Part shown: piece after piece, positions 42,671-64,000 of the stretch
Layout: each line of letters starts with the position of its first letter
How positions within the stretch are numbered: position 1 is the stretch's first letter
NCBI GenBank assembly: GCA_037042915.1
Contig: CM073199.1
Location: forward strand, 1,674,001-1,738,000
From: Auricularia sp. M13
Lineage: Eukaryota; Basidiomycota; Agaricomycetes; Auriculariales; Auriculariaceae
Reading direction: 5' to 3'
DNA length: 64,000 nt
Translations under genes and position numbers: made by a program
Notes under the pieces: generated by a model
Told to the model about the DNA's origin: nothing
Seen by the model: the letters and a program-made list of their open reading frames with translations, nothing else
Database searches by the model: none

Positions 42671-43126
42671 TTGAGAAATGCAAAATTTGCAGTAAATCTT
42701 ACTCTAAGTTTTGCAAACTTGACACAGCGTCCTTTGACATGCGATGAATCACTTTCTATCTTCTGAAATATCCTGCGACAGTGGCAGCTGTCAACAGGAC
42801 TGTCAGCGCGGGCGTGGACAGCCCTAGTGGTCACCGCTGTATTTATTCCTGAAGCCGTAAAGGGTTCAGGTCTTACAAGAGACAAACCGCTCCTACGCAC
42901 GGCTCTCTCCGATAGGGAATTCCCAAAATGGTTGTTCGTCCCCCCGTGGGAAATTTTTGCATCATCTGACAGCATCCCCTTGGTTTTTTCGAGAATGTTG
43001 TGGCCGTAATGCTTGCTTTCGAGGCGCTTCCGGAATGTTCCAGAGTATTCCAAGTCCGTCATTGTACTCTTTCAATCGCGCAGCCCTCGAGCTGGCGCTC
43101 AATCCACTCTTCCTCCACCTTGCTCC
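42671..43126. other. F-box 3' flank and Helitron 5' region
   Basis: 456 bases. The 5' end of the Helitron should lie here, but the TC terminus is too short to place by eye. The last 100 bases are CT-rich and act as leader for the RepHel gene. Confidence 0.35.
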
Positions 43127-46100
43127 ATGTCAACTTTCTCGGTATTCGAAGCGTCTCCAGACCAGAAGGAAGCCGCGCGTCGTGCGCGCGCTCGCCTCAA
43201 AAAACAGAATCAGCGTCTTCGCCGCGCGCAGTCAGCAGCAAGCGACGTAGGCATCGAAGCATCACGCTCACAGGCGCGCGCCCGTATGAATGACATTCGC
43301 GCCCGTAGGAGCGCGATGGATGAAGAAGATTTCACGCTGTCGGCTGATCTGCAGCCCCAGTTTGGCGCCTTTTCTGTGGACACTGGTCCCTCTTCGTCAT
43401 CAGGCCGACCCGCTGAGTCTTCAGTTGATGCTATGGACACTGGGCACGATCATGAATACGCCGCGGACGTTGGACACGGACTTGATGAACTGGACGCGGG
43501 CTCTCGTACGCGCGTGACGAATGCTGGTTTTACGGCTCGCGGTGAACTGCACGCTTCGGGTGCTGGGGCTGTAGCTTCCTTTTCCTTGACTGTGGATCGC
43601 TCTGGCAACGGGGTTCTATTCCAGGATCTTCCACTTGCATTGTTGGACGTGAACGATATCCGTATCGCTCTCATCGCGCATAGCGTTTCTCGCCAACGGG
43701 AGCAGAAAGTTGATGCACTGCGTCGCATTGCTACGCTGCATAAGTGCAATCCCGCGTGCAGACGGATTACGTTCTCGTTACAGCATAGTCTGAATGCTCT
43801 TGCAGAGGATGACCCGGAAATCTGCCGCCAGCGGTACGAAGCGTTGTTGAATTCTCGTGTTCTATCGGCTTTCCCTCCAACGGTCTCACAAGATGCCAGA
43901 GACGACATCGTTAGACGTTGGTTGGACAGAATGTGCGATTCTCGGTTCCGCGAAGCGACATGCGCCGTTTGTTCTGAATCCGTAAACGATGTATTAAGTG
44001 ATATTCAGACTTTGACTGACGAGCAGTTGGCTGTGCTGACAAACTACGACCTCCCTTCTGAGGTATTTCCTCGCGGATACGATCGACAATCCTATTGTCA
44101 CGCCGTATTGGACCAACGTGGACTGTTACCCGACGTTGGACCTCGCGCTGCCCGCGTATGCCATAGCTGCTGGAGTAAGTTGTCTATTCTAAAGCTACCG
44201 GCCCTTTCTCTTGCTAATGACAATTATAGTGGTTTTGACTGTTTACCAGGTCATATTCGACAGTTGTTCCTACGCGCGACACCCGTGGAACTCTCTCTCA
44301 TTGCTCGCTATCGCGTGAAATGTACAATTTATAAGTTTTCTCGTAAGAAGAACTCGCCTCAGTATGGAACATCTGATCTGACATCTCAGAAATATTCGCA
44401 GGGAAATGTGATCACTTTCGCGAATGGAAATTCAAAGTTGCTATCCGTACTGCCGCCAGCTCCGGAAGACGTTCGCGACGCCATCGCGGTTATATTTGTG
44501 GGCTCTGCGTTACCTCCTCCCGAGGAAATCCAAAAGATGACCCCGTTACTGGTCCGTCGAAATGTAGTCGTGACTCTGCTCAGCTGGTTGAAGGCTCATA
44601 ACCCTTACTATTCCGATGTGATCATCAGCTCGGAAAACATGGATGCTTTACTTGCAGAGGGTTCGGACGGTGTACCGTCTGTCCTGGACTTACAGCTTGT
44701 ACGCTCGGACGCTACGGAAGTTCCGTCTGCAACATACGTCCCGACTGAGACGGCAAGCGGCGACGACGATCCCAGCTCTATTCCGCTCTTTTCCAACGGA
44801 GTCGTCGGTACTTCCATAGATGGGATGCCTCTGAGGGACATCAAAGTTCTGGCCATGAAGCACTGGAAGTCTGGCGGAGCTGCGTATGCTATACCGCATG
44901 GCTCAGAACCTATAGTTGAGTGGAAGAACCCGGCTCTATTTCCCTGTATGTTCCCGCATCTATTCCCTTGGGGTATCGCCTCCATGGACTGCGGACAACG
45001 TCGGGAATCCGTTTCTATGCAGTCTCTCGTGCGGCACTTGTTAAATCTAGCTGATAAGCGCTTTCAGATAGATCAGACCTTTATGTATGTTGCTATGAAC
45101 ATTATCCAGAAAATGACAGTCTACAAGTCTTCGAGATGGAGGGTAAAAAGGTCATCGCAGGCTCGTGTTCTTGCGTATCTATCAAGCGCCGAAGTTTCCG
45201 CGTGTCAAGCTCTGCAAATGCGAAGCGCCCGAGATCCGCACGCAAAACCAGTGCCTGAGACAGACGAGGAACGAGCAGTGTTGAATCTCGCTCGCGAAGT
45301 AAAAATGGTACAGTTACCCATACCGGGAAGCGAATCATCCAAGTTGAGTATGCGTAACCAAATTCGCTCGCTTTGCGCTTACCTCGGCATGCCAACTTTT
45401 TTTTTCACACTGAATCCTGCGGATATATACCATCCGCTGTTTTGCAAGTTCGCTGGCGTCGATGTAAACATTGATGAACGCGTTCCGGCCGATTTACCTT
45501 CTCATCACGAGCGTGAGGTACTCGTTGCACGCAATCCAGTGGCTGGTGCAAAGTTCTTCCATGCGATGATGACATGCTTCATTGAGGTTCTACTGGGTGC
45601 TGACAGTCCCAACGGGACCGGGATTTTCGGGCCGCTTCGGGCGTATTATGGTACAATAGAAGCTCAGGGACGCGGTTCTCTGCATTGCCATATGTTTATA
45701 TGGATCGACGGTGGCCTGTCGCCGAAACAGCTTCGAAAACGTATGCAGACTGACCCGACCTTTAAATCCCAACTGTTTCAGTATCTAGACGATACGGTGC
45801 ATACTTGTTTACCTAGCAACACTGGTGTGGTTTCTCCACACGATGCTGCCTTCGTGGAACGAGATCCCGACGAGCCCCACCCTTGTACTATGCGTTGTCC
45901 CCATCCGGACGATGCTGATTTCGAGGATGAACTCGCTCGTCAGCTTCAACGTCTAGTATACGAATGTCATTTTCATGCCCATACAGACACGTGCTGGAAA
46001 AACTTACGCGTGGGGGAACCTCGTGATGATGCTCATTGTCGTATGCGTATGGACGGTTCTACTCGTGCTAAGACCGAATTGGATCCAGAGACGGGATCTA

Positions 46101-48142
46101 TACTACATCAACGATGGCATCCCTGGGTGAATCAGCATAATCGGACTGTGACTGCCTGTACGCGATGTAATTCTGATTGCAAGTTCATTGGTTCAGGTCC
46201 AGGAGCACAGGCGTTGATACATTATGCTACTGATTACATCACCAAAAACAACTTACCGACTCACACCGTGTTTGCTGCTTTACAGCGTGTACTCGAAATC
46301 ATTCAAGGCGTGGAAGATGACGACCAGTTAGATGCTGACGAACAGCTTGCAGCTAAAGCCAGTGCAGAACGAGCGCGCAAGTTTCTCAATAGAGCTTGTA
46401 ATGCCCTCATGTCTGAAATGGAACTTAGTGGCCAGCAAAGTGCTTTATATTTGTTGTCGCAGTCGTCGTTCCACCATTATGCATCCCATTCGTTCCAGAC
46501 GTTATATTGGGGCAGTTTCAATGCGTGGATAAAGCGACAAGAGTATAACGAGTGTCAATCGGTCCGCTCTAATATTCCGGATGACGGTTTTGAGGACGAG
46601 GTTAACGGTGGAGACGACGACGTTCTGATAGACATGAAACCTGGACGTCGCACATTGCAAGTCTCTAGCCAAGTCGATGATTACATTTATCGTAGTGCTG
46701 GTTACGCAGACGTGCCCCTATATTGGTTTGTTAACATAATGAACAAGCTTCCACTTGAGCGTGAGAAGATAAGACTGGGCAAGCGGGCGCGAAAAACGGC
46801 ACGTACCAGCCCGCGCTCGTTGCTGTTGGATCCACATCCTCAGGCGAAAACGCATCTGCTGTGCATTCGTGAGAAACCCGTTGTTCCTGTTCTACTTGGA
46901 CCTACTTTGCCCCGCGGAGATCGCGCCGACGAGTACGAAGAATACTGTCGCGCCATGTTAATCCTATTCAAGCCTTGGAGAACATTGGTTGACTTACGGA
47001 GACCGACAGAGTCTTGGGCAACCGCGTTCGAGCAGTTCCGATTTCATGCGCGGTCGCAGGAGGTTATGGCAAACATCGCGGCCATGTTTGAATGCAAGGA
47101 CGCGCGCGATGCGTACAGCGAACTGCGGAAAAGAGGTGTAATCAGCCACGATCTGATTAGCGAGCATCAGGTTATGCGTTCCATTGCGCGCCTCAATACC
47201 GGAGACCAGGCAGACGAGACACAATGGGATTGGTTGCACGCATCTATGCCTGAAGTCGCTGATGAGCTGGCGGTGAACGGGCGAGATGCTTCCGACGACT
47301 CACCTGAACAAGCCATGGGCGTATCACAAGCAGTTAATGCAACCATCGCCCGTCGCGTTGTCGGAAATGCGTTCGAATCAAGTTTATTTAATGTGCAGCG
47401 TCCGTCGACGGTCCACGACTTCGCAATGTTATCAGATGCGACGACGAAAGCTCAACACAAATCGATGGAGAAACTCACGGACAAGTTCAGGAGGGCGCAA
47501 CGGTTAGAATGGTCTTCCGCGGACCAGCACGCGGAAGTCCCTGGCATCGACGGGCATGTTGCGGACGTGGATCCTAACGCGCGCGTGGTACACGAAGCTG
47601 ATATGGGTGTCGGAGATCGTGAAGCGTACGAAGTTCGATACGACCAAGCTGAGCAGCATCCCGAGCGATATCGCGACGAGCTTAGGCATGTAGTGCGGGA
47701 CTTCCGTCTCAACCGGGAGCAGACTGCCGCTGTCGGTACTGTAGCTGAACATTGGATTTCAGGTGACACGGAACAACTCTTGATGCTCGTGACTGGGGGA
47801 GGTGGAACTGGGAAAAGTTATGTCATACAGGGTATCGAAGAATTTTTCAAACGCGTCGGTTGTAAAGGTTTGGTGAGAAAGGGAGGGCCAACGGGTTGCT
47901 CGGCGCACCTGATTAGTGCGGAGACGCTCCACTACATGCTTCGCCTTCATTATAACACCAAGACCAGTGTCAACACGCTATCGGATTTGCAGTCTGAATG
48001 GAGCGGAGTCAAGTACCTCGTTATAGACGAAGTGTCCATGATCGGGGCCAAGTTGCTGTCACGTATCAGTGAGCGACTGGGTCAGATAATGCAGGTCAGG
48101 CTGTCTCTAAAACAGACCAGTAAGGTCTATCCCATCCTTTGA
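43127..48142 (+). mobile_element. Helitron RepHel transposase, 3'-truncated helicase
   Basis: One uninterrupted frame of 1,671 codons from the ATG at 43127. Order of parts: a basic helical N-terminus (KEAARRARARLKKQNQRLRR), a CxxC pair domain (CAVCSESV near residue 278, CHSCWSKL near 345), the Helitron Rep region (PTFFFTLNPADIYHPLF near 755), the HUH motif GRGSLHCHMFIW near 848, the two-tyrosine motif HYATDYITK near 1030, and a Pif1-type helicase with Walker A GGGGTGKS near 1557 and Walker B VIDEVSM near 1630. The frame ends soon after Walker B, so helicase motifs III-VI are absent and the last residues (VRLSLKQTSKVYPIL) are unrelated. Known: Helitrons move by rolling-circle replication. This copy cannot encode a full helicase unless a distal exon was missed. 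The long open frame suggests fairly recent activity. Confidence 0.9.
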
Positions 48143-48587
48143 TGCATTGTACCCTGTGGGTCCTCTATATTGTGGGGCCCCTGGTCCCTCCTGAGGATCG
48201 CCCGAGCTTATGTGTTGATGATGGTGCGTACGCGCTGGCCCCCCAGCTGCACGCATTTCTGAGCCTGGGGCTCCAGCATTTAGCTCTCTGTCTTCCCAGC
48301 GCCTCATATCCCAGGGCCATCTGGGGCCCCTGCTAACACCTCATATATCACGGACTTAGGCGGTCTATTGGGTGTCGAAATGTCCAGACTCCAAAATACT
48401 GTCTAAAGCTTTTAGGAGCTGTAGACTTGGACCATATCCCGTGTCGGTACTTAGTTACTTATTTGCTATCCACTTTCTGACAACTATATACTGTTCCCAT
48501 CCATTCAGCACGTTAGGTCTATTCTGGCACTACAACCCGAACGGTACGACATTGAGCTCTAGAAGGACATCGATTCAGTTTTCGCTT
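48143..48587. repeat. Palindromic-motif DNA replacing the Helitron 3' part
   Basis: No gene. Carries at least four variants of the GGGGCCCC/GCTGGSGCCCCAGC motif: near 48172-48185, 48233-48248, 48263-48277 and 48320-48334. Expected Helitron 3' hairpin and CTRR end not recognised. Confidence 0.55.
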
Positions 48588-48986
48588 CTAATCATGGAGA
48601 ATGAGATATATCAACCTGCGGAAAAGAGACTGCACGTACGATGCGGCGCGCACAAACGCGGCAATGGCTGACAGATCAGCCGCCCTCATCCAGCTCTCAA
48701 TCCGCGAGAGCTGGCCATTCATGGCCGCGCGCCGGTCAGCGAGCTCTGCCTCCAGTGCTGCGCATCTCCTCAACAAGTCGTCCCTCTCTTCGCGCAGCCG
48801 ATCGCGCTCGTTGAGGATGGGCAGCAAAGCCGACATCGCGACTTTCCCATCATCGGCGGTGGCCTCGGCGAGTTGCGGGCCGCGTGCGTGGACACGCAGA
48901 GTCGCGATGGCGGCCTCAATGCGCTGCGTGTCGCCGAACGCGTCAGCCATATCCGTCTCGACGGCAGGAGTGTGCGAGGTTGCCAT
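48588..48986 (-). CDS. Small coiled-coil protein, unknown
   Basis: ATG at 48984-48986, stop at 48588, 132 residues. It opens MATSHTPAVETDMADAFGDT and has a strong heptad segment: LNERDRLREERDDLLRRCAA, LEAELADRRAAMNGQLSRIE. The C-terminus is hydrophobic (VQSLFRRLIYLILHD). Divergently arranged with the gene at 49369, whose coiled coil carries the similar run LLDERDALLRGEKRLLKEIS. No family recognised. Lies in the accessory island next to the Helitron and may be a captured or island-specific gene. Confidence 0.55.
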   Translation of the reverse strand: MATSHTPAVETDMADAFGDTQRIEAAIATLRVHARGPQLAEATADDGKVAMSALLPILNERDRLREERDDLLRRCAALEAELADRRAAMNGQLSRIESWMRAADLSAIAAFVRAASYVQSLFRRLIYLILHD

Positions 48987-49368
48987 GACCAAGCTAGCGC
49001 GAACAAAGGTATTCTCCGCGGTTTCTCCCGGACTGGCTCCCCAGCTTCATATGTTCATGATAATACCGTGATCCCTCGATCCTGGGCTGTCACGACAGCC
49101 GCCAGCCGCGGCAATAGCTGTCGCCCCAGTCGACTTGTTCGAGCTATGATTCCCGCTGAGTGCAGCCCCAGCTTCAAGTCCCATCGACTCAGATCATCGA
49201 CTACTGTCTCCCCCGGGGGGCCCAGCTTCATGCTCTGCATCATACCTGTCGCCCCTGTACTGCAATATCAGTGCAGGGCTGACGCGTCCACTCACTCAGC
49301 ATAAGAATGTGCGATTGCCAACCTCGCTGCTACTTTTCCTTCTCTTCAACCTCCCCGCGCCAGCATCC
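48987..49368. promoter_or_regulatory. Divergent promoter with palindromic motifs
   Basis: 382 bases between two divergent coiled-coil genes. Contains about four variants of the motif: ACTGGCTCCCCAGCTT near 49032, CGCCCCAGT near 49119, GCAGCCCCAGCTT near 49162 and GGGGGGCCCAGCTT near 49215. Confidence 0.5.
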
Positions 49369-49863
49369 ATGGATTCTGTATCGGCGGACTCGCAGTGCAC
49401 TACGTCCTCAGAGCTACATACTCCCACGGACGCCTCTAAACGCGCGGACACCTCTGATCTGCGCGCTGCTGCGCCCACCTCATCCGCTCCACCCGCTACT
49501 CCCCGCCCGAGCAAGCGCGCCGCGGATGAGTCTCCCATCGCAACTCCTCAGCAAGCGTACAAAAGGCTTCGCCGCTCGCGTGACGAGGAGCTCAAACGGC
49601 AGGCCGAAGGACGCGATTATAAGTTGGCAGAGCTCAAAAGAGAGATGTGGGAGTGGATGCGCGACATGTGCGACGACATCGTCGAAGGACGTGCCGAGCC
49701 CAGCTTGCTCGACAGCTGGGACGGTGGCCTCGAGGAGATGAGCGACCTTTTGGATGAGCGCGACGCATTGCTCAGGGGCGAGAAAAGGCTGCTCAAGGAG
49801 ATTAGCCGTCTTGAGGCGCGTTGTGAGAAGCTCGCGGCTGAGCTGAAGGAGGCGCGCATGTGA
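49369..49863 (+). CDS. Small basic coiled-coil protein, unknown
   Basis: The first in-frame ATG is at 49369 (MDSVSADSQCTTSSELH); stop at 49863; 164 residues. The Ser/Thr/Pro-rich N-terminus includes RPSKRAADE and a basic run YKRLRRSRDEELKRQ (possible nuclear signal). A helical stretch with Trp pairs (KREMWEWMRDMCDDIVEG) follows, then a C-terminal coiled coil (SDLLDERDALLRGEKRLLKE, ISRLEARCEKLAAELKEARM). Resembles in layout the divergent neighbour at 48588-48986. Function unknown; dimerising nuclear protein is an inference. Confidence 0.6.
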   Translation: MDSVSADSQCTTSSELHTPTDASKRADTSDLRAAAPTSSAPPATPRPSKRAADESPIATPQQAYKRLRRSRDEELKRQAEGRDYKLAELKREMWEWMRDMCDDIVEGRAEPSLLDSWDGGLEEMSDLLDERDALLRGEKRLLKEISRLEARCEKLAAELKEARM

Positions 49864-50389
49864 GGTATGTATGCTTTACCATGCTCGTTCGTATGTAGCC
49901 CTTCTAAACTCCCATCTCAGTTGCTGTGTGATTCGAGGCGCCGCATGTATGCTAGCTCCATACTCTCGCTGGGATAGCTCGTAGTGTATCTCTCTGAACC
50001 CTGGGCACCCCAAGCGCCCCAGCTGTGCAATTCCAATTTGGTGCTTTCCTCGACTCATTTCTCACTGACCTGGCGCCCCAGAGCCACGCAATTCCAACTT
50101 GATGAAATTATCCGACCGCTGGCGCCCCAGGATATTGCAAATCGCTGCTGGCGGTCCAGCCTATCAACTGAAGTTGTTTCTGGCGCCCCAGCACATCAGG
50201 ATGATCTTCTGCTGGCGCCCCAGCTTGCTATGATGCTGGCGCCCCAGCGCATCAGGGTGATCGTGCGCTGGCGCCCCAGCTTACTATGATGCTGGCGCCC
50301 CAGAACCTATATTGGCACCCCAGCTTGTTCCCCTCACTTATTGGCGCCGTTATCATGAGCAAGCGAATAGAATTACTATGAGTCCCACG
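49864..50389. repeat. Array of CTGGCGCCCCAG palindromes
   Basis: Convergent intergenic space. From 50001 to 50330 about ten copies of CTGGCGCCCCAG or close variants occur: 50069-50083, 50118-50131, 50147-50160, 50180-50192, 50211-50224, 50235-50248, 50267-50280, 50291-50303 and others. Between about 50180 and 50290 they sit in two 56-base tandem units (second spacer CATCAGGGTGATCGTGCG). No open frame spans it. Confidence 0.85.
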
Positions 50390-53300
50390 TCAGACAATGT
50401 CTTCCAAATTACCTGAAGGCGTCTCTAGCGGTCCCGATCCCAGCACCTCCAACCAATCATATCCCCCCCCGCCGCCGATCTGAGCTTCGGTTTGCCAAGG
50501 AAATCCGCCGCTGAGAGCCCTGAGATCTGAAGATGAATCCGCCAGTGCGCGCGTGAAGGATGCATTGCCCAGCTCTCCCGGATCTGCGCGTGCATCTGCT
50601 AGTGCCTGCCCGTGGTTCGCGAGGCTTGGTGTTGCTCCTCCGGTGGCGATACTGCTCCCACCGATGGGAGAGGTCATGCCGGTCCCATTGACCGCAGGCG
50701 GCTGCCACATCGTCGGCATCCATCCCTGCCTTATAAGGCTGTTCACGCGTGCGAGCTCGACAGCGCTGGGAGGCGCCGAGCTTTGACCCGGCAGTATCGT
50801 GCTTGCAGCTTGGGCATCTGATGCAGTCGGCGTCGGCGCGGCGAGTGTGAAAGCCGGATTAACGACAGATAAAACGGGAGGGGGGGCGGACGCGGCACGA
50901 GCACCCAGCAATGGCGACGCGCCAGGCGGCATAGCATCGAACATGGGAGGCACCGTCAGCGTTTCCGACGAATCGACCGCAATGATCGGTGCAGCCGCAT
51001 GCGGTGCATTCTGACGCGGAATGGAGAACTCGCGCGGGGGTGCAGGAACAAGAGGATCGACGTTCTACCGATGTGTGTCAGACTCGCGCGGGACAACAGG
51101 ATCAGCGACTCACTGTCATTTGGCTCGGTCCTTCGACTTCCATCATCCCTTGCGTCGCTTCCTGCAGTGAACGTGAGCTGTGTTGCAATTGGCAGCGACT
51201 TGAAGTGGTATACCTCGGTCATGAACCAGTCAACGTTGCCACCGCCGATGGCATTCTTGTGAACCGCGGCGACGCCGGCGGCATGCAAACTTTGAGTCTT
51301 AGGCGGCGGCTTCGTTTTCGCCGGGCGCACGTCTGGCTTGTCTTCTTCCTCGCTCTCGAAGCCCTCGACGATGCGTTTTTCTGGCCTTTTCATCTCCCGC
51401 GGAATCTTCAAGTTGTTGTAGCGGTTCTTGACGTCGACGAAATCCTTGACGCGAAGTCGCACGACCCCGCGGTTGGTTGTCCAGATGGGAGTGTTGTACC
51501 ACTCATCCCAGTTCGTGCCAATATGATCGAGTTCAGCTGTGAGCAAGGCGAGCGGATGAGCAATGTGTACGCGACCCGAACGAATTCGTCATGAGCTCAC
51601 TAGTAGAGATCTCCTCGAACCGGAGAACATCCTCCTCGTTGAACTGCGCGCGTTCCTTCGTCGTGAGCTGGGTGATCTTGCGGCTGCCGTCTGCCTTCGT
51701 CAACATGTCAACGTCCTCGACGTCTTCGAGAGCGTTGTTATAGAGACGGTGGGCCTGGAAGAGCGCCCGGGCGAGTCTGAGTACGTCTGCTGTCACCCAT
51801 TTGCCCGCCTTTTCGCTCGGCAGCGCGATACCGTCAGGCCAGTTGACCACCCGTTTGCGACCCTTAAGAACCAGGAGCTCGAATTCGGACCATTTTACTT
51901 CGTTAACCCGTTCGTGAGGCCCGACCAGACACTCTACGACACCTGTCAGCAACCCGTACAAGAACCGTCGCATGGACTCACCCTGCCAGAAGAGAAATGC
52001 ATCCTTCAGTACGGCACGGCGTTCATCGGGCTTGAGCATTGTGAATTTACTGTATGCCTCGCGGCTCCAGTCCCGCTTATCAGCCTCATTCATAAGATGG
52101 ACGCTGCGGCAATATGAGATATCTCAAACAGCGCGGGATGTCACACAGTTACGCACTTGAAGAGGCTCGCAAAGTCGCCGGTCAGATTGCGGATGTTGAG
52201 GCGCATCGAGTGCATGAATTTGCGGGCCATGTCGGTGTTAGAGAAGCAGCCGTTCATCGCACAGCCTTCAAGGTCGCCCTGGTTTACGCACACCATGAAG
52301 CCGAAGATCGCAATCTTATAGTTCGTGAAGTACGGGCGCGACTGCACCATATATTAGCGAGACGGAGCGAGCTACAGGAGTTGCGCGATCACCATGCCCT
52401 CGAGTTCATGGCTGAGCCGCGCCATGACCTTGAACGTTTCGCCAGCCTCGAGGACATCCTTTGCGACCTCCTCCTCGTACTTGTCCGCCCATTCGAGAAG
52501 CTTCTTCCTCTCGATGATCCTCTCCTCCTTCGGGAGGCTGCGGAACTCGTCTTCGTACGCGCGCGAGCGGCGCTCGCGGTATTCATCCAGCGTCTCGCCT
52601 GCAAGGGTCATCGCATTAGTCAAAGCTCGCCAGCCTGATGGGTAACACACCTCCTTCGACGTTGCGCTTGTTGTGCAGGCTCCAGCGTTCCTGGAACAAG
52701 TTCCACGAGGAGCGGTCGCGCTGCAACTTGAGCTTGATGCGCGTGCGGTCCCACAGGTACTTCGCCGACTTGCCCGTCTCCGCAGCAAAGTCCATGATGA
52801 ACTGCTCGAATTCGCGGATCTTGTCGTCAAGCAGTCTCTTCTGTTCGGCGGTGAGTGGACCCGGCTTCGTGTCCTTCGTGATGCGGTCCAACTCGGCCAG
52901 CTCCTCCTCGGGCATATCGTCCACCGATTCCAAGACGCTGTCGTTGATCGCCGACGTCTTCCCCGCGACGACAGGCTTCCTCGGCGCCCGCGCCTTGGCA
53001 TCCTTCCCCTTCGTCTTGGGCGGCACGACGGGACGAGTGGCGCGCGCATCGGGCTCGTCATCGTCGTCCTCGACGAAGTCTTCGACCGCCGCCTTCCGGG
53101 ACCCCTGCTGGGCCTTGGACACCTGTGGCGCGTTGGGCTTGACGGGTGCCTGCTCGGTTGTGGGAGTGGGCGCGGCACGGCGCGAGTCGTGGACCGCCGC
53201 AGACTGCGCTGACGCGCTGTTCTCCGATGACCAGGTCGTCGGAGTCGTACCCGCGGGAGCGGCATTTGATGCTGGTTCTTGCGGCCAGACTCCGGGCGTC

Positions 53301-54958
53301 GCATCTGAGTCCTCGTTAGACGAGGTGGGAGATTCTGCATAGGTGAATACCGTCAGCTCTATACACACCAGCTCGAAGGAAATAACAGACCTTTCCACGC
53401 GTTTTCATTGGACTGCGCGTTGACTACTGCAGGAGCGCCGCCTCGTCCTCGCCCGCCTCGCGCGCGAGCAGGCACCGTGGCTTGTGTACGACCACGGCCG
53501 CGAGTACTTGACTGCCGCTTCGCCGGCCGGCCCTCGGCCTAATGCGCGACCAGAACGTAAGTCACACGCGCCGTTGTGAGTGAATAAACTCACCTTCGTC
53601 TCGTCCTCGGCATCAGAGGCCGGCTGCTTCCTCTTGGAGGCTACCTTGGACTATGAACACCCAGTCAGCCTGTAAATTACAAAAGACAACGAGCGGACGC
53701 GTACCTTGAGCACAGTGGAGGGCTCAGGCTCGTCCATTGACTCGTCTGAGTCGTCTGCGGCGGCAGCGGATGCCAATTGTTTCTTGTTCTTCGTGGGCGC
53801 CTTTGCCTGCGTGGAGTCAGCCTCGGCATGAGCGTCGACAGCGCCAAGTCGATAGACGCACCTTATGCACCGGCGTGGGCTCGGCGTCAGCATCATCTTC
53901 GTCCATAGATACGTCGCCGTCAGCGACGGGAACGTATGCGACGGGTTTCTTGTTCTTCGTGAGCGCCTTTGCCTGCGAGGAGCGAGTCAGCCTCGGCATG
54001 AGCGTCGACAACGGCAAGTCGACGCGTACCTTGGACACCAGCGCGGGCTCGGCGTCGGCCCCGCCCCTCCCTGCTTCGCCTTCGTCGGCAGCAGCGGCGG
54101 CGGGTTTCTTGTTCTTCGTGGATGTCTTTGCCTGCGAAGTGCGGGTCACAATCATCATATGCGCGACTGTGATAAACGGATGCATACCTTGGTGGCAGGT
54201 GCGCGCTCGGCCTCATCCAGCGAGGCGTCGCCATTGGCTTCGTCGTCGTCCTTGTCTTCGTCGTCGTCCTCGTCGTCCTCGTCGTCCTCGTCGTCCTCGT
54301 CATCGGCGGCGGCAGCGGCGGCGGCGGCGGCGGCGGCGGCTGCAGCTGCAGCTGCAGCTGCCGCTTTCTTCTTCTTCGCGGCGGCGCGGGAGGCCTGCAA
54401 CGGCAGCGTCAGCCTCTGCACAATGACGAACAACAATGACCCGGACCTTCGTCGAAGGCGCGGGCTCGGCCTCGTCCGTCGCTGGATCGCCGTCTGTTGC
54501 TTTCTTCTTCTTCGCGGCGGCGCGGGCGGCCTGTAGTAGTAGTGTCAGCCTGTGCGCAGTGTCTAACTGCAATAACCCGACCCGTACCTTCGTCAAAGGC
54601 GCGGGCTGGGCTTCGTTCGTCTGTGCATCGCCGTCTGCGGCGCCAGCGGCCGTTTTCTTGTTCGCGGCCGGTTTCCTTTTCGCGACCTGCTTGCGCTGGG
54701 AAAACATCAGAATCGTTGCGGGCGCCAGCTTGAAAAACGTACTGGAGCCGCAGACTGGGCCTCGTTCGCGCCTGACGGGTCCTCTGCGTTGGTATCGACC
54801 GCCGAATCCGCATTGGCGACGGAGCCTGCGTCACCCACGCCTGCAGACGCGTCTGCGAAGCTACCGACGGTGTCCTGAGCGGTGGCTTGGCCTGCAGTGG
54901 CGACGATGCTGGTTCGCGTAGCCTTGGTGTTCTGGCGCGTGGAGCGCCGGGTGGCCAT
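50390..54958 (-). CDS. Large nuclear-type protein with amplified Lys/acidic exons, unknown family
   Basis: ATG at 54956-54958 (MATRRSTRQNTKATRTSIVA), stop at 50390, about 15 exons, roughly 1,200 residues. Exon 1 is 54743-54958. Exons 2-8 (54588-54695, 54447-54530, 54188-54394, 54030-54131, 53862-53972, 53705-53806, 53594-53650) are all phase 0. Each opens with a short basic run such as AARAAAKKKK or AKALTKNKK, passes through an acidic or Ala-rich part, and ends in Lys. Exon 9 is RGRGR/RGGRGRGG-rich. The C-terminal two thirds is helical and well kept across introns: DDKIREFEQFIMDFAAETGK, SAKYLWDRTRIKLKLQ, WNLFQERWSLHNKR, AIFGFMVCVNQGDLEGCAMN, FLFWQGESMRRFLYGLLTGV. A Pro/Ala/Ser-rich tail ends it. 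I do not recognise the family; chromatin or DNA binding is suggested only by the basic and RGG parts. Confidence 0.75.
53594..54695 (-). repeat. Seven tandemly duplicated mini-exons with their introns
   Basis: Exons of 36, 28, 69, 34, 37, 34 and 19 codons, separated by introns of 57, 52, 56, 57, 55 and 54 bases, all in phase 0. Introns after the fourth and fifth units share CGACGCTCATGCCGAGGCT, and others share GAGGCTGAC, so exon and intron were copied together. The 69-codon unit contains expanded GCN (Ala) and GAC/GAG (Asp/Glu) triplet tracts at about 54240-54370. Confidence 0.85.
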
Positions 54959-56174
54959 GGCTGGTGAGCTGGGGGGACAACTTTTCGCTCTGGGGAGACA
55001 GACTGACTTTATGGCGAGCTAGAGCGCGATCTTGGCCGATATTGCGCAGCACGCATGATCACTGGTATCTGTGTGCAGCATGGTCGTGCCGCGGCTGTCG
55101 CGCCAGCTCTGGAGAACGTGACGGCATCGCGGAGAAAGCTGACCCGGGATTGCCCGGAATCTTCCCCAGTGATGCACCAGGAACATCACTTGGTACTGAT
55201 TACCTGTAAGTATCAAGTAACATTCCACGGCATTTGCGTATCTGATCTAAGCGAGAGTTGTGAATGCTCTCGTTGCTCACACCAGGGTCAACCTCTCTGC
55301 GACTTTGCGACCTCGTACAGCTCTGCGCAACGCTCCCGGCCGTGATATCTAGATCATGATCAAGCCCTTGCCTTGCTGATTCAGGGTGAAGGCGCCTTGA
55401 TGGGATTTGCGTGGTCATATTCCCTGGGGCCCCAGCTTTCTGCCGACCGCGTTTCCCCGCTGCCGATTTCTCGTCTTACCGAGCAAGGACATGCGCTCGC
55501 TGCTCTGGCTGTGATTTATTGGTGCTACTGTCTACCAGCTTGCTGTCTCGTTGAACGGGATCGGAGACTACCTTTGTGTGCTATGCTTCAACCCGACGGA
55601 AAAGCTGGCTCCCCAGCTGCAATCTGACCGCGTGCTCGCGTTTCAAATTGGTCATTTCCTCCTCGAACTTCCATGAGATGACTCCTCACGCATCGCATCT
55701 CGAGGGAAATCTGTTCGGCCGTGAACGCACGGCCGTGGTGCATCCGTAATTTCTGCAGCTTCGAATCCTTGGTACTGTCCGGACTACGCTACGCCCCGGG
55801 ACGCATGTACATGCTTTCTGCGACTCCATGTCGCTATTCAAAGATGTACCGAGCTGGGTTCGGCGCAGCAGAGCTGGGTGCCCAGGCACTGCACGGAACA
55901 ACATCTGTATCCCGAGCTGGGGCCCCAGCTCTGCTGCACGGAACAACACCTGATTACCAGTTTCTCTGCGCAGCAAGGCTGGCGCCCCAGCTCTACGCGG
56001 TGGGAGATCTACATTTGGCCTGTCTCCCCAGCGAATTGTCCCATGGAACCCGATCCGAATGCCACGTCTGAGGATCTTCATGTCCGCCCGATGAACCCGA
56101 TAATCAGAGATTATTGCAGCTTCTACAGACTGCCTTAAATGGTCTCTGCGGCTTGCCTCGCGCTCTCTCGCGTC
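54959..56174. repeat. Intergenic with palindromic motifs and short direct repeats
   Basis: 1.2 kb divergent promoter region between the large nuclear-type gene and the acidic-protein gene. Motif copies: near 54968, 55428-55442 (CCTGGGGCCCCAGCTTT), 55601-55614, 55871-55886, 55914-55931 (GAGCTGGGGCCCCAGCTC, a perfect 18-base palindrome), 55977-55992 and 56020. TGCACGGAACAACA occurs twice around the perfect palindrome. No gene supported. Confidence 0.7.
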
Positions 56175-57728
56175 ATGGATTCCCCCCCTGCCTCTGACAA
56201 GTACGGCTCGCCCTCTGTACCGTTTTCCGCAGCTAACTAACGCCTTTGCAGAGACCAAAGCTCCGAGGGAGTTCACGCCTCGTGAGTCGTACATTTGACT
56301 GCCTGCATGACTTGCTGAGCTCATGTGCACAGCACGGCTCACCCGTTCGCGTCTGGCCGCGACTCGCCCTGGAACGGCTCGGCGCCCTGCCCTGAAGTCG
56401 ACCCCAGTCGGATTCACTCCGGCTGGGGCGAGCATGAGTGGTTGCCGGCGCCGAATATGGGGTCGCCGGGCTGGACGCGCGAGGACAACGAGGAGGAAGA
56501 CAGGAAAGACCTCGTGAAGATGTACGACGACCTCGTCGTGGAGATCCATCGGCGCATCGCGCAGGCCACTGCTGGCGACCAGGCGAGCCACAGCGACGGC
56601 GATAGCAGCAACGGCAGCGTCATTTCCACCGACAGTCTCAGCGAGGTCATGCTCGGCGCGCCCGACTACCTCGAGTTTATTCTGTTCCAGCGCACATGCG
56701 ACACCCCCGGCTGCACCAGGCATGATCCCTGTCGCCGCTGTCTGCGTCAGGACGGCGCCTTCATGCCATCGACATTTTGGCATTGCCTCAGCGACGCCCG
56801 CATCGAATGCCACCTCGAGCAGTACCTTCGCGTGCGTGATCGCCTTCCTCCCTGGGTGACCAAGCTGCCCGATGGCCTCGAACCCCCGCGCATCGTCTTT
56901 GGTCCCGCGCCCGTCGTCTATTTCTCCCCCGCCGCAGACCCTGCCGCCGCTCCCGCCGCCGCCCCCGCCAGTGACTCTGACGTGGACTCCAGCGTCGACT
57001 CCAACGTCGATTCCAACGTCGATTCCGACACTCCCGTCGTCAATGCGGTCGTTTCTCCAGTCGTCAACGCGGACATCAACCCCGCCGCCGCCGCTCCCGC
57101 CTCCACTCCCGACATCAACGCGGACGTCGCTCCCGCCGGCGCTCCCGGCATCAACGCAGACGTCGAGTCCGCCGCCGATGCCGCCGTCGCTCCCGTCGTC
57201 CCTCCCACCATCAACCCCGCCACTTCGCTCACTCCGGAATTCCTCGCGAAGCTGACAGACACGCTCGGCGAGTTCGTCACGACCGATAGCCCGCGCAGGG
57301 GCATGTGGTTCGAGCTGAGGGACATCCTCCGCCGGTCAAGCGCCATGGTGGCGAACTGGCCTTCAGACTCGGCATCCGCGGCAGCCGTCGCGGCAGCGAC
57401 CTCGTGGATCGATGCCGCCGGCGAGGATGGTCAGGCGGAACGGACGCAGCGGGCATTCGCCATGATGCGTCAGCTGCATTGGCAGTTGGAGGAGGTTGCG
57501 AGCGCCAGCATCAACCCCGCAATCGGCCTGCAGTCCGGCGATGACGACGACATGCCCCCGCTCGCAGCTGTGTCAGACTCGTCCCCGGACGTGTCTGAGC
57601 GCGGAGACGTCGACGTGCCCGAGCTTGCGGACGTCTCGGACTCATCCCCGGACGTGTCACAGCACGGCGACGACTCCGGCGACTCACATGCCGCGTCTGC
57701 GAACGGCGACGCCGCCGAACAGAACTGA
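56175..57728 (+). CDS. Acidic Asp/Ser/Ala-rich protein with Cys cluster, unknown
   Basis: Exons 56175-56200, 56252-56281 and 56333-57728 give 483 residues. The two tiny first exons restore MDSPPASDKDQSSEGVHAS before TAHPFASGRDSPWNG. Seen: WTREDNEEEDRKDLVKMYDD and LVVEIHRRIAQAT (helical), a Cys/His cluster CDTPGCTRHDPCRRCLRQDG that could bind zinc, then FWHCLSDARIECHLEQYLRV. The middle is low complexity, with Ala/Pro/Asp/Val repeats around INADVAPAGAPGINADV. The C-terminus has a duplicated acidic Ser segment (VSDSSPDVSERGD, VSDSSPDVSQHGD). No family recognised. The composition and place suggest another island-specific nuclear protein (inference). Confidence 0.65.
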
Positions 57729-57840: not shown

Positions 57841-58561
57841 CTATGTACATTGCCAAATCAGAGTGCCTGCGTCGTACGCGTCATTGAGACCGCTCCCTTC
57901 CGTTGAAAGATCCAGCAACTCTGTCAATCCGTGAGAAATACGTGCGGCATCGTGGGAAACCTTCTCCAAGGCCGCCTGGTGGCGTCTTTCTCCCCGCAGC
58001 CAAGCCTCCCGGCTTGCAGATTCCGCCAGGTCCAGGGCCTCACTTGCGAGGTGAGACTTCTGCGAAATGATATCGAGGACGCGCTTGGATGCCCTCTTTT
58101 TCCCACGGGCAGCAATCAACCGTGTGGTGAGCTCGTCCCACATGGCTGACTCCGTGAGGTCAGAGTCGATCCAGGTGTGCAGATCTCCTGCGAGGACTGT
58201 CGCAAAGACCTTCAAACTTGACACCCGGGACAAATCACAGGGCAAACCAAAGGCCTACGGATTGCGGGTTGTTATTAGAGAAAGAACTGGTAAATCGGTG
58301 GTGGCGCACCGCCGCAACCCCGTGAAGCACAGGGAGAACGAAGGTCTTGTTGCCTCTGGGAGTGCGCAACTTGCGAGCGAGGATCTTCTGCGCGTGATAG
58401 CGCTTTAGAGCGCTTTGGCGTTCGCGATCTTTGTTTCTGGGGAATGTCAAGCGAGAATGAAAGGAGGACAACCTGACGCGCCTTTCATAATACTTGCGCT
58501 GCGACTGCCTACGGGCTTCGGCACGCTCTTGAGGAGTCTTGTATTTAACGGGGCGCCCCAT
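57841..58561 (-). CDS. Small GRPxxYxT-type basic protein of mushrooms, unknown function
   Basis: ATG at 58559-58561 reads MGRPVKYKTPQERAEARRQS then QRKYYER. This N-terminal basic motif recurs in many short uncharacterised Agaricomycete proteins (general recollection). The best continuation, NKDRERQSALKRYHAQKIL, needs a 45-base GC-AG intron, but the same 45 bases are also open, so retention keeps the frame. A second intron (GTGCGC...CCGTAG, 55 bases, about 58255-58309) joins LPVLHGVAA to AFGLPCDLSRV. The C-terminal half is helical (LLDLSTEGSGLNDAYDAG near the end), stop at 57841. Possible DNA-binding role inferred from the basic helix only. Confidence 0.6.
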
Positions 58562-59225: not shown

Positions 59226-59920
59226 CCGTTGCGCTTCGCCGTCTGATGCAAGCAGCCTCGTGTTCTGTTCTAAGTAAAGGCGGTAGATGCCACTAGCACC
59301 TTCTTCGAAATAAAAATTTGAGATCTATGTTGATTATCGTAGTGACGGACGGCCTTTGCACACACTTCACACGGCAAGGATATCCTGGAGTAATGCATCG
59401 TCTATTGCGAATGTACAGCTGAAGGACAGCGTCCTTAGCATCAAGGAGCAGGGTCTACCATCGAAGCAAGGCCCGCAACCGTTTGACGCGTGGCATTGGT
59501 CTTGCGCGGGCAGGGCGTAACCAGCGCACACCTGGATGCCATTCAGCGGAACCAGAGAGCAGAAGCAGGGCTATTACGCACGCGCGGGTAGCCATACTCT
59601 TGGAGTCGTGCACGCGCTTGACGCCGATGTCGTTGCCTGGCACGATGTGAGCAGGATGTCGGCGCAGCCCAGCTGTCCAGTCTGGCGTGGGCGGTTATGA
59701 GTGGCGCATACCCCTCTGCGCGGCGTGTCGTCCGTAGGACGGTGGCGGGAGGATTGAGCAAATTCGCCGCAAGCTGGGCGACGTAGTCAGTCTAGGCAGG
59801 CGGGGAGGTCGGAGGAGAGATGGACCTTGCGCACGAAGCCATAGACGCAGAGTAACATGAGCAACATGGCACGGATTTTCCGCAGTAAATAGCTGCAAGG
59901 ATCACATATGTAAGCCTCCC
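59226..59920. other. Repeat-flanking DNA, no gene seen
   Basis: 700 bases with only short unbiased open frames. No motif or RNA gene recognised. Confidence 0.35.
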
Positions 59921-60090
59921 TTCCTCTGGTATACTGGTCCCAAGTCCTCCAGTACTGAGAGTTGGGACCCAAATCCCAGCTTTCATTGGGACATAGGTCC
60001 TAACTTCTACTAGAGGTCCCAACCGCTGGAGGTCCCAAGTTCCAGAGTCCCAGATTCAGTAGTCCCAACTTTCAGGGGGCTCACATGCGA
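59921..60090. repeat. GTCCCAA-rich patch
   Basis: At least eight occurrences of GGTCCCAA, TTGGGAC or one-base variants on both strands in 170 bases (for example near 59936, 59962, 59985, 60020, 60036, 60062). Looks like a decayed minisatellite with inverted units. Confidence 0.6.
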
Positions 60091-60129
60091 CTTAGGAGTG
60101 GATTCATCTCAATGCGCAAGTCAAAATGA

Positions 60130-60216
60130 ATTGTGACCTGCACAAGATTTGAACCCTCAACCAGCCGCCAGTGCCAAACCCGTCCATGCTTTAACCACTA
60201 GACCAGGGAGGAGATG
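60130..60216 (-). repeat. tRNA-derived SINE-like head
   Basis: On the minus strand an A box TGGTCTAGTGG (60195-60205) and a B box GGGTTCAAATC (60146-60156) stand 38 bases apart, as in RNA polymerase III promoters. The flanking stems do not close into a proper cloverleaf (acceptor and T stems mispair), so a functional tRNA gene is unlikely. A SINE or tRNA pseudogene is the better reading. The 3' body of the SINE, if any, would extend to lower coordinates. Confidence 0.55.
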
Positions 60217-60575
60217 ATGGTGAGGTCCATTGATGGCAATATATGGTAAGACTCAAGCACCTCTGTTCAAAAGAATCCAAATAACATTGAAACTAAGAGG
60301 CCAAAAATTATGAAGTATATATGGTTATTGTAGCTCTCAATGGGTTCTATAATATTATGTCTTAGTGGAGATAATATATCCAAGCCAGAGAGGAATAATG
60401 GATGTCCAAACATGATTTGGTATGCAACTGTCACAGCAAAGCACTTCACTCGTGCTCAGACAGGTTCAGGAGGATTCTGGAAGGAAAATATGAGCAGTTC
60501 AACTGATTATATCAAATTAAGTACACTGAACACAATTCCAAGCAGATACATGTCACAGTACATGGCGATCATGCC
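60217..60575. other. AT-rich repeat DNA
   Basis: No gene. The segment about 60300-60360 (TATATATGG...TTGTAGCTCTCAA...GTTCTATAA) resembles part of the palindrome arms at 63275-63320, so it is probably a diverged copy of that repeat. Confidence 0.45.
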
Positions 60576-61075
60576 CATATGCCTGTAAGTGACTGTGCCC
60601 CCCAATTCCAGGTGGATTCCAGGTGGAAAAATGCAACTATGCAAGAAAAGTGTCAGAATGTCAAATCCATCATATTTTGATGGTATACCCCCTCAGGTGG
60701 AATTTGGGTGGAATTCCACTGGACCGTTGGATCGGATGGGCCAGAATGGCCGAATTCCGGTGGAATTCCACTGGAAACAATGTGGAAATTCATCAAAAAC
60801 TGTGATTAAGTGTTGGGTTAGGTTAGGTTAGGTTAGGTTAGGTTAGGAGTTAGGTTAGGTTAGGTTAGGTTAGGGGTTAGGTTAGGTTAGGTTAGGTTAG
60901 GTTACTAGAACGTTTTCATGTTTCCTGGGGCGGCTGTGCATCTCTGAACCTTATTTGTGATGTCTAACATATTTTCTCACCCCTTAGAAAATATTTTGTC
61001 TGGAGCAGGTTTTCCACCGGAATTCCACCTGGAATCCTCCTGGAACCAGGGGGCAGTTTCAGGTTCTCCCATATG
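60576..61075. repeat. Inverted-repeat (MITE-like) element with internal (TTAGG)n
   Basis: The ends are inverted copies of each other over about 55-60 bases with mismatches. Both have CATATG near the outer edge (60576-60581 and 61070-61075), then GCCCCC, then TTCCAGG(T/A)GGATTCCAGGTGG. No open frame; non-autonomous. Internal copies of GGTGGAATTCCACTGG recur at 60700-60775. A (TTAGG)n tract sits in the middle at 60815-60904. Confidence 0.7.
60815..60904 (+). repeat. (TTAGG)n interstitial tract
   Basis: About 17 units of GGTTA/TTAGG in 90 bases, broken twice (AGGAGTTAGG near 60847 and AGGGGTTAGG near 60873). Most basidiomycete telomeres are TTAGGG, so this five-base form is not the expected host telomere unit. 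Confidence 0.9.
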
Positions 61076-61105
61076 CTCCCACTGAATCTGTTTTGCCGCT
61101 GTCTT

Positions 61106-61260
61106 GTCATGGCAGAGCGCTTGTCACTCGACAAGACTGATGCCCAAGAGAGGAGGTTGGCGCACTGTTTCCCCTTGGACTGAGACTTGGCCAAAGTTGC
61201 ATGCCTCTGTCACGGCAGAGCGCTCGTCACTCGCTGAGACCGACGCCCAAAGGAGGAGAG
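61106..61260 (+). repeat. Direct repeat TGTCAYGGCAGAGCGCT
   Basis: TGTCATGGCAGAGCGCTTG at 61106 and TGTCACGGCAGAGCGCTCG at about 61207 open two similar stretches of 50 or more bases, 101 bases apart. A third copy is inverted near 63104. Confidence 0.75.
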
Positions 61261-63105
61261 AGGGACGAGGAAGAACGGACAAGCGGTACAATTGACCAGA
61301 CCAAACCTAGGGTACACGCATCTACACCCCACAACCTATATACCCATCTCCAGAGACCGATGATCCGATCCAGGGTGATCCCGGGGATAGTGAACGCATC
61401 CCCCATCATCTCCTAGGGTGCCGACGCCCCTCCAGACCTCCGGTCGAGCACGGTCCGAGGCGGGGCTAAGGTGTTGAGATATACCATACACACCGAGGAC
61501 ACGGACCGAGGAGGAGGGCGTCACACGGGCGCATAGGGATGGCGTCAAGCCACGTCCGAGAGATAGCGCGCCCGTGGGAGGCCCAATAGAGGCGTCTCCG
61601 AGCCTCCGGGGCTGCACAGGATGACCAGCCAAGCCCGTCTGAGGTCCGAAGGGGGGCCTAGAGTCTGTCCCGAGCGTCCCAGCGCACGTACCCGACGCAT
61701 ACAGCGAGGTGAGAGCAGCTGAACCAGGGTCCGAGGGTAGGAAACCTCCCCCGAGCCGAATTGGGGTATGCGCCGAGGTCGTCTCACCTCATAGACCGAT
61801 AGAGAGCGGCGCGTAGATCATATCCCGAACCGTTCAGCCCGAAGTCTACAACCCTGGCCGAGTCTCAGTCCGAGGGTAAACAGTACGCCGACTGTATGCA
61901 GCAGCGACCGAACGCTCAGCGAAGCGTCGTAAAATCCGCGGACGAACGGACAGAGCTTGCGGAGACCATGAAGACCGCAACAGCCTCAGGCTGTTTGTCA
62001 CGGTGTGCTGCATACACTACCGACCAGGAGGTATAGCCGACCAGGAAGGGTACTCAGGAGGGGAAGGTTGAACACATAATGGACCAGATCCAACCTAGGG
62101 TACATCCGAAGGCAATTGCCAGTACATATAGTCCGATCAGAGGCCGACCGGATCCCAGCGCCACAGATGACAGAGGAAGTCAACCAACACCAAAGGGAGG
62201 TCCGGAAGCAATGGAGAAAGACATCAGGGAAGTCACCGAGGGTAATCGGGAGCCAGTGAAAGTAATGGGGGGTAAAGGGAGGCAAGGGAGGGTCAAGAAA
62301 AAGTGAAGCGTTGTGCCGAAAGCGCAGAACAACACCAGACGAAGGTGATAAAGGATGTCCGTGCCTATGGAGGGTATCAGGTGGGTATCTGAGACAGACC
62401 GAGGTGTCCTTGCATGTATGCACACACCGACACGGGAGAAAGGGGGCCGACGCAATGGCGAGCGCAGCAGTGAGTGCAACGCGTCAGCAAGCACGGTACA
62501 AGCGCACCACCCAACAATCAAGACTCCCAATGTGTCCAGACATCCTCCGGACCATGGACAGTGCTGAGCGCGGACCGAGGAGAGTGTGGCAGCCGAGGTC
62601 CGAGGTACCGGAGCGGTTGAGCGTCCATGGGACAGAGGGTGAAGGATGGACGTCGGCAAGATCGTTGCAGCTTTGCCTGTACTCCCAGCGCGCACCGGCA
62701 ATGCAGGGCAATGCCTGAGGTGTGATGTGCTGCATATCCGAAGGTGTAGGCCGTAATGTGACACCAAGGAGACGGACCGACGAGCGGCTACATGCTGGTT
62801 GAAAACCAACGCAGCAGTGGTCGACGACAATGGCAATGGCGTGTCGCATCCAAGGACCAAGGATGACAACGGTCCGGTGACGCCGAGAGAAGGTATCCGA
62901 GGTGCCAGCAGTCCGGAGAGGCATGTGGGACGGGGTCAGATGGAGCGTGCAAAGCAGCAAAAGAGATCCAACAGAAGCGGCGTATGGGCGCGATTGCCGC
63001 ACACCGTAACAGTCTGGTCAATTGTACTGCTTGTCTGTTCTTCATTGTCCCTCTTTCCTCTCTCAGGCATCAGTGTCAGCAAGTGATGAGCACTCTGCCA
63101 TGACA
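61205..63105. mobile_element. Old element with about 95-base inverted terminal repeats, family unknown
   Basis: The left end (TGTCACGGCAGAGCGCTCG ... GGTACAATTGACCAGAC, about 61205-61303) returns inverted at about 63010-63105 with moderate divergence. The interior, about 1.7 kb, is purine-rich, with CCGAGGTCCGAGG-like runs, and has no recognised transposase or other domain. A segment with AACCTAGGGTACA occurs directly at about 61305-61390 and 62081-62160. The whole looks non-autonomous and aged. Confidence 0.55.
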
Positions 63106-63209
63106 CTATCACCCCCTAGTCGGATAGAGAACAGCAAGTAAATCATATTGAGAGCTGACCAGCCCAGGATGCACCCCTGGCACATGGTCTGAGGCAGGGA
63201 GATACGGTA
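63106..63209. other. Spacer between inverted-end element and palindrome
   Basis: About 100 bases, no feature recognised. Confidence 0.3.
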
Positions 63210-64000
63210 GGGAAACTTGAGAATGCTGGTCCATAAATTGCATATACCACGTAATCTACTGCAGGGAGAACTACGGTGTATATATGGAACTTGTAGCTCT
63301 AAAGGAGCTCTATCAGGTGGTATATAGGTACTGGCAAAGGGGTGCAATCCGGGGGTGAGAGAGAGGATCCGATGAAGAGGTGGAAAATCACATTGCCAGA
63401 ATCAGGTCCTCCGGATAATTTGAGGTTTCTCTCTCAATCTATACGTAATTCTGAGGTGAGTTTACTATTTGAGCCAAAGTGGTTGGATGTCCGATTCTGG
63501 AGCCAGTGGACCCACAATTTCTGCTTGCTCAACCTCTCAACGAGGCAATGGCCTACCTAACTGCATACCCCTGGACTGAGACATGGTCTAGAGTACATGA
63601 TATGTAGTCTTATGCTCTGAGAAGGATTCTCTGACCCTTGGTTGGCCCTCAAGGTCATTCAATTCCCGGATATAGAAAGCATGGAATCCAGGTTAATTGA
63701 GAAATTGCTCCAGAACGGGACATCCAACCACTTTGGCTCAAATAGTAAACTCACCTCAGAATTACGTATAGATTGAGAGAGAAACCTCAAATTATCCGGA
63801 GGACCTGATTCTGGCAATGTGATTTTCCACCTCTTCATCGGATCCTCTCTCTCACCCCCGGATTGCACCCCTTTGCCAGTACCTATATACCACCTGATAG
63901 AGCTCCTTGAGAGCTACAAGTTCCATATATACACCGTAGTTCTCCCTGCAGTAGATTACGTGGTATATGCAATTTATGGACCAGCATTCTCAAGTTTCCC
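63210..64000. repeat. Large palindrome, 283-base arms, reaches window end
   Basis: The left arm 63210-63492 and right arm 63718-64000 are reverse complements with one difference noticed (near 63303) and no length change. The spacer is 225 bases (63493-63717). The window ends inside the right arm, so the true arm is probably longer, matching sequence left of 63210 or ending beyond the edge. Open frames in the arms mirror each other and are not taken as genes. Confidence 0.85.

Follow-up and report, generated by a model that had tools for sequence, protein, structure and literature searches.

The analysed window is a 64,000-nucleotide stretch of the Auricularia sp. M13 genome (C7:1674001-1738000, in an assembly of 52 Mb and 14 contigs), and positions below are window coordinates unless a contig prefix is given. 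Searches of the window and the genome identified histone-fold genes, short introns of the spliceosomal type, KDZ transposases and a Helitron-like gene. On the minus strand lies a predicted gene, here called gene A, whose model starts at an assumed ATG (54958), continues through conserved exons to ∼51114 and has an uncertain 3′ end. It carries an array of seven short exons; gene B diverges from it, gene C lies beyond gene B, and a KDZ transposase match lies past the window end. We read gene A as a KDZ companion gene in which blocks containing introns duplicated in tandem and so lengthened the basic/acidic N-terminal segment, and we give this reading, which covers anatomy, origin and companion status together, a probability of about 0.62. 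Its firmest parts, which we regard as established at the level of sequence, are the anatomy of the array, the homology of most of its units, the existence of a multicopy gene family and the linkage of that family to KDZ transposases.

The exon array of gene A

Seven predicted mini-exons (E1 to E7) fill 53594-54695 exactly on the minus strand, with lengths of 108, 84, 207, 102, 111, 102 and 57 nt, every one divisible by 3. The six introns between them (I1 to I6) are all phase 0, 52–57 nt long and bounded by GT and AG, and the introns flanking the array (I0 before E1 and I7 after E7) are phase 0 as well; the five introns after I7 have phases 1, 1, 0, 2 and 1. An earlier model-generated interpretation of the DNA letters (the sequence-only reading) had proposed these seven phase-0 exons with their overall span and codon counts (Table 1), alternating with 52–57 base introns, and our gene model bears this out. 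Its suggestion that repeats can be added or lost without frame damage also stands, since phase-0 symmetry makes gain, loss and skipping of an exon frame-neutral. Exon lengths differ from one another only by multiples of 3, whereas intron lengths differ by other amounts, and the four best lags in a self-repeat scan (141, 136, 166 and 159) are not all multiples of 3; this combination fits coding exons separated by real introns.

Every unit (7/7) has a basic, Lys-rich head followed by an acidic, Asp/Glu-rich rest, a charge alternation of the treacle/Nopp140 type, and Lys is the last residue of every exon (7/7). The Lys-rich starts and Lys ends had been pointed out before and are present throughout, although the ends are likely anyway because of AAG/GT at a phase-0 splice site. 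Within E3, the Ala run and the Asp/Glu run are built from triplet and 9-nt repeats. The array is not a tail, as had been supposed: it makes up residues 73–329 of the gene A model, N-terminal to the conserved region, whose family segments were placed by homologue searches at about 53210 to 51230, within E8-E13.

As controls for intron similarity we took 36 intron-like sequences that a pattern scan had picked for the same splice signals, pattern matches rather than verified introns, and drew 4,000 pairs, with repetition, from their 630 distinct combinations. Two of the 15 pairs among I1-I6, I1-I2 and I4-I5, outscore 4,000/4,000 control draws; the other 13 do not beat all controls, with seven at p<0.05 uncorrected and six not. 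Judged by eye, the AGGCTGAC region at the branch site accounts for most of the weaker similarity. The expectation that the introns share sequence is therefore strongly upheld for I1/I2 and I4/I5 and fails at p<0.05 for six pairs. Among exons, E1-E2, E2-E3, E4-E5, E4-E6 and E5-E6 give z values of 7.9 to 19.9 against codon shuffles, with lower similarity between the two groups (E1-E4 z 4.6, E1-E6 z 4.8), and E7, with a best p of 0.012 across 6 exon pairs, is not clearly related to any unit. The array thus appears to consist mainly of two sub-arrays (E1-E3 and E4-E6) with weaker mutual similarity, rather than of seven copies of one exon-plus-intron unit as first proposed. Aligned at the DNA level, most units do share similarity beyond composition, as that proposal required, with E7, I3 and I6 unconvincing.

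To locate the duplicated segment we compared blocks (T1 to T6), each made up of one intron and the 36 nt of exon sequence that adjoin it on either side (the tail of the exon before it and the head of the exon after it). T1 and T2 are 78% identical and T4 and T5 80%, against 64% and 74% for the matching exon-plus-intron units. The local scores of these two pairs are 128 and 141, where the best of 3,000 random window segments reaches 27–31 per block; T3 scores 66 with T4 and 51 with T5, and T6 at most 34. At T1-T2 and T4-T5 the repeat takes in a whole intron and the adjoining exon ends, and I1-I2 and I4-I5 share descent within the gene, both of which are features of the Cryptococcus gene CNN00420 discussed below. 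In sub-array 1, the tails of E1 and E2 are alike at 30/36 positions and the heads of E2 and E3 at 33/36, but the heads of E1 and E2 at only 14/36, which is the pattern that a tail-intron-head duplication would leave. In sub-array 2 the tails of E4 and E5 agree at 26/36, the heads of E5 and E6 at 31/36 and the heads of E4 and E5 at 30/36; since the tails of E5 and E6 (19/36) and I5 and I6 are unlike, one joint would lie inside E6. The clearest duplicated blocks therefore seem to be exon tail, intron and next head, with joints inside exons, clearly so in sub-array 1 and more weakly in sub-array 2. The idea that exon plus intron was copied as a unit survives insofar as introns were apparently duplicated together with coding sequence, but the clearest blocks are centred on introns and not on exons.

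A gene family linked to KDZ transposases

A query with the exon-9 region matches 14 genome loci and one with a 62-residue segment of exon 11 matches 16, each count including the window copy, and together they merge to at least 20 gene A family loci. Matches to the KDZ transposase family (PF18758) number 149 rows, which merge to 95 loci. The two co-localise, as would be expected of a companion gene: 19/20 gene A loci have a KDZ locus no more than 16 kb away, whereas 2,000 trials of random placement average 1.2 such loci and reach 6 at most, and at 16 of these 19 the KDZ gene is upstream on the opposite strand. Gene B has 17 genome loci, 15 of them beside a gene A locus, 15 beside a KDZ locus and 14 beside both, and at all 14 loci with the three genes it lies between gene A and KDZ. 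For the window copy, the KDZ match is at C7:1740456-1741163. We conclude that gene A most likely accompanies KDZ elements as a companion gene, and we infer that it lies inside the element ends. The sequence-only reading had described an otherwise conserved protein; a conserved region is indeed present, but it belongs to a dispersed multicopy family paired with KDZ transposases.

We inspected 13 relatives, the six further loci found only by the exon-11 segment being left out. Homologous stretches of gene B occur in 8/13 and of gene C in 5/13. Two pairs of relatives (L043/L044 and L045/L046) are near-identical although on different contigs, with main pieces 95–100% identical, which indicates recent spread. 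In 13/13 the open frame that contains the conserved segment is 168–546 codons long, and the array units were not matched in any of the 13. A basic and then an acidic block precedes the conserved segment in 5/5 relatives chosen from the 13, the basic block being weak in L050; the window copy has seven basic-to-acidic blocks, each in its own exon. Judged by eye, several relatives have low-complexity repeats of their own at the corresponding place, contained in one open frame. In a self-repeat scan of the stretches upstream of the conserved segment, the 60-nt match score was non-discriminating (controls 57 at the 95% point, maximum 60; window gene 51), and repeat lags are multiples of 3 in the highest-scoring relatives (L045, L046, L049, L054 and L055). 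L045 and L046 carry long Gln/Pro/Ala repeats in one open frame upstream of the conserved segment, of 517 versus 533 codons.

Domain searches gave little. Pfam includes a treacle family, yet 1,045 residues of gene A match no Pfam family at E 0.1 or better, treacle/Nopp140 domains included, and with gene B, gene C and parts of gene A as queries only two matches came up, at E 0.32 and 0.022, neither of which reaches the curated cut-off. A profile of the conserved 74-residue segment has four matches among solved structures, with E values of 0.19–0.70 that are not meaningful. TET/JBP-type domains, considered as a KDZ partner at the window copy, have 19 matches in the genome, 4 of them above the curated cut-off and 0/19 on its contig, C7, so that this candidate was set aside.

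The features of the locus are collected in Table 1. The repeat-derived stretch between gene C and KDZ matches locus L053 piecewise, and the 680 nt with which it begins (59903-60582) have eleven other genome copies; a nested repeat of ∼490 nt (60583-61068) contains a GTTAG array (60812-60904) and has ∼30 similar copies in the genome. A palindrome-like short motif around GCTGGCGCCCCAGC is repeated on both sides of gene A (48234-50329 and 55424-56002), and a genome DNA search with 49900-50330 as a whole returns only itself. Adjoining this KDZ-linked gene is a Helitron, represented by a 1,710-residue open frame (43010-48142, plus strand) with matches to Helitron_like_N, DUF6570 and a PIF1-like helicase. 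Farther off, two open frames ∼14 kb apart in opposite orientation (9090-10742, plus; 24523-26115, minus) are by eye very similar and Ser/Thr/Ala/Gly-rich, and the neighbouring frames 12897-13589 and 14729-15583, both minus, look like mutual paralogues.

Table 1. Predicted features of gene A and its surroundings in window coordinates
Feature	Position	Strand	Description	Basis
E0	54743..54958	-	first coding exon, 72 codons, ATG 54958 assumed	gene model
E1	54588..54695	-	mini-exon, 36 codons, sub-array 1	gene model, unit comparison
I1	54531..54587	-	intron, 57 nt, homologous to I2	intron and block comparison
E2	54447..54530	-	mini-exon, 28 codons	gene model, unit comparison
I2	54395..54446	-	intron, 52 nt	intron and block comparison
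E3	54188..54394	-	69 codons; E2-like head, then Ala run and Asp/Glu run	unit comparison
I3	54132..54187	-	intron, 56 nt, weakly similar to I4	intron comparison
E4	54030..54131	-	mini-exon, 34 codons, sub-array 2	gene model, unit comparison
I4	53973..54029	-	intron, 57 nt, homologous to I5	intron comparison, genome DNA search
E5	53862..53972	-	mini-exon, 37 codons	gene model, unit comparison
I5	53807..53861	-	intron, 55 nt	intron and block comparison
E6	53705..53806	-	mini-exon, 34 codons	gene model, unit comparison
I6	53651..53704	-	intron, 54 nt, weak similarity only	intron comparison
E7	53594..53650	-	mini-exon, 19 codons; basic then acidic; not clearly homologous to other units	gene model, comparison
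E8-E13	50859..53538	-	remainder of gene A	gene model; below 51114 uncertain
Gene B	56319..57728	+	open frame, divergent partner of gene A, between A and KDZ	family and synteny searches
Gene C	57841..58254	-	open frame	homologous stretches among relatives
Repeat-derived stretch	59903..64000, continuing to would-be 64538		between gene C and KDZ	genome matches

Proposed growth of the array and competing explanations

In the mechanism that we propose, the low-complexity basic-then-acidic segment of gene A would have expanded through successive tandem duplications, presumably by unequal crossing-over or replication slippage. In the clearest cases the copied block would have stretched from the end of one exon through a complete short intron into the start of the next, and because the phase-0 intron in it brought both splice sites along, each duplication would have left the gene one intron and one symmetric, in-frame exon longer; phase 0 would thereby have made the copies harmless to the reading frame. 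The predicted protein that results would carry a chain of seven charge blocks, each with a Lys-rich head and an Asp/Glu-rich rest. More doubtfully, this chain could be a flexible extension that helps a transposon protein to associate with nuclear structures or nucleic acid. A bolder proposal, that KDZ elements carry a module of genes A and B (sometimes C) and that one gene A copy has become combinatorial, its charge exons being gained, lost or skipped and so tuning binding to chromatin or nuclear condensates, seems unlikely to us. As to its origin, the array may be taken as a convincing DNA-level example of a known process in an unexpected gene.

Several observations weigh against parts of this reading. 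The case that E7, I3 and I6 belong to the repeat is not convincing, and in sub-array 2 the heads of E4 and E5 are nearly as alike as those of E5 and E6, which makes an intron-centred duplication less clear there. That the array introns are spliced in vivo we infer from their sequence. At 3/19 linked loci (C1:8701334, C4:375290 and C8:1735919) KDZ shares the strand of gene A and lies downstream of it, and the family copy C7:2736195 is more than 16 kb from any KDZ locus. In the window copy the distance from KDZ to a conserved exon of gene A is 14 kb, versus 6–11 kb at the other 18 linked loci, partly because the repeat-derived stretch of ∼4.6 kb lies between. Finally, six chosen 36-nt head and tail comparisons contain 7 synonymous versus 21 non-synonymous changed codons, and their nucleotide differences are spread evenly over codon positions 1, 2 and 3 (13, 12 and 14). 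Frame and composition alone appear to be kept between units, and with no residue-level constraint between them the function of the array is doubtful.

This last point bears on the most serious rival, which shares its account of origin with the favoured reading and differs on function only: slippage and unequal crossing-over would have lengthened a disordered linker that needs only frame and hydrophilicity, leaving the number of units functionless. We put this neutral outcome somewhat short of an even chance. The lack of residue-level constraint between units speaks for it, as do the failure to find the units in the 13 relatives inspected and the plain triplet and 9-nt repeat runs of E3, whereas the retention of both the frame and the basic-then-acidic order in 7/7 exons does not, since unconstrained sequence would lose both in time. 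The order of events could also be reversed, with an intronless coding minisatellite arising first and part of each unit later being recruited as an intron. The first intron of each sub-array (I1 and I4) has a length divisible by 3, 57 nt, and no in-frame stop, and the uninterrupted low-complexity repeats seen by eye in several relatives would suit such a beginning; however, two such introns among six is close to chance by a rough estimate, I3, I5 and I6 contain in-frame stops, and the lengths of I2, I3 and I5 are not multiples of 3, so that we consider intronisation improbable.

The remaining alternatives fare worse. That the segments are not exons, their frame and splice pattern being chance in GC-rich low-complexity sequence, might be argued from I3 and I7, which the intron pattern scan did not pick, but is very improbable given a run of eight phase-0 introns that begin with GT and end with AG, a branch-like motif found by that scan in I0, I1, I2, I4, I5 and I6, a frame that is unbroken from the ATG into the conserved exons, and unit homology far above controls. 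Equally improbable is the earlier view, in which a conserved host gene binds chromatin or RNA and ends in a variable tail: the Lys-rich and acidic composition and the nuclear-type introns agree with it, while a family dispersed over 20 loci, with a KDZ transposase next to 19 of them, two near-identical pairs of relatives on different contigs, the N-terminal place of the array and the lack of a Pfam match above cut-off do not, and we rejected it on family size and KDZ linkage. Introner-like elements, in which the similar introns would be copies of a mobile intron inserted repeatedly, are the least likely explanation of all, even though short introns that resemble one another within one gene are what they would produce. 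Genome DNA searches, which skip simple repeats and very common words, return with I4 only itself and I5 and with I1 only itself, rather than near-identical introns dispersed in many genes, and the similarity continues into the flanking exons; an introner origin was accordingly discarded. A genome query with the array DNA has matches elsewhere only on the Ala/Asp runs of E3 and none on introns among 20 scored candidates, and the units as a protein query find just two matches beyond the locus, at E 0.06–0.07.

Comparison with known systems

Duplication of intron-containing segments is a known but rarely documented route to a longer flexible protein segment without breaking the frame. Gene A adds two sub-arrays whose joints indicate how such expansion may have happened, through intron-centred blocks with breakpoints inside exons, and a fungal gene family without known domains that is tied to KDZ transposases in a recurrent gene order. 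Should strains prove to differ in copy number, the locus would allow intron gain and the changing length of a transposon-borne protein to be studied as a natural experiment.

The comparisons that follow draw on the available excerpts of the papers cited. Fungal KDZ DNA transposons resemble this locus in pairing a KDZ transposase with a partner gene (PMC12730594, PMC12810828, PMC8290104); Cryptococcus KDZ1-3 are about 9–11 kb long (PMC12810828). The partner described is a TET/JBP dioxygenase (PMC12730594), whereas here the partners are genes A and B, which lack Pfam domains and were not met in these excerpts of the open-access fungal KDZ literature. Among proteins with repetitive segments, the SP7-like effectors of Rhizophagus have hydrophilic repeats and a single conserved intron before the first repeat (PMC11333574), and were set aside as a parallel in the absence, in that account, of one intron per repeat. 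The central domain of treacle (TCOF1) has 11 repetitive motifs encoded by exons 6A-16, and treacle and Nopp140 share with the array repetitive basic and acidic low-complexity regions, but the repeats of treacle differ in being clusters of serine that contain many CK2 sites (PMC7957619), and gene A has no Pfam match. The PEVK region of titin is likewise a charged repetitive region encoded by many exons that undergo duplication and loss, but it is a vertebrate muscle spring with known alternative splicing, and we claim no homology to it (PMC6469411).

The closest parallel is the Cryptococcus gene CNN00420, whose repeats consist of exon ends and a full-length intron and whose copy number differs among strains (Sharpton et al. 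2008, PMC2395259). That 2008 paper states that just one other example was known of intron gain by repeat duplication. As in CNN00420, introns of one gene are alike in gene A, with extra introns arising through repeat expansion. CNN00420 differs in having three identical introns with splicing supported by ESTs (expressed sequence tags), while the copies in gene A have diverged and are known here from the sequence of one genome; the linkage to a KDZ transposase is a further difference, being a feature of gene A. The repeats of CNN00420 and the array of gene A are the same kind of event.
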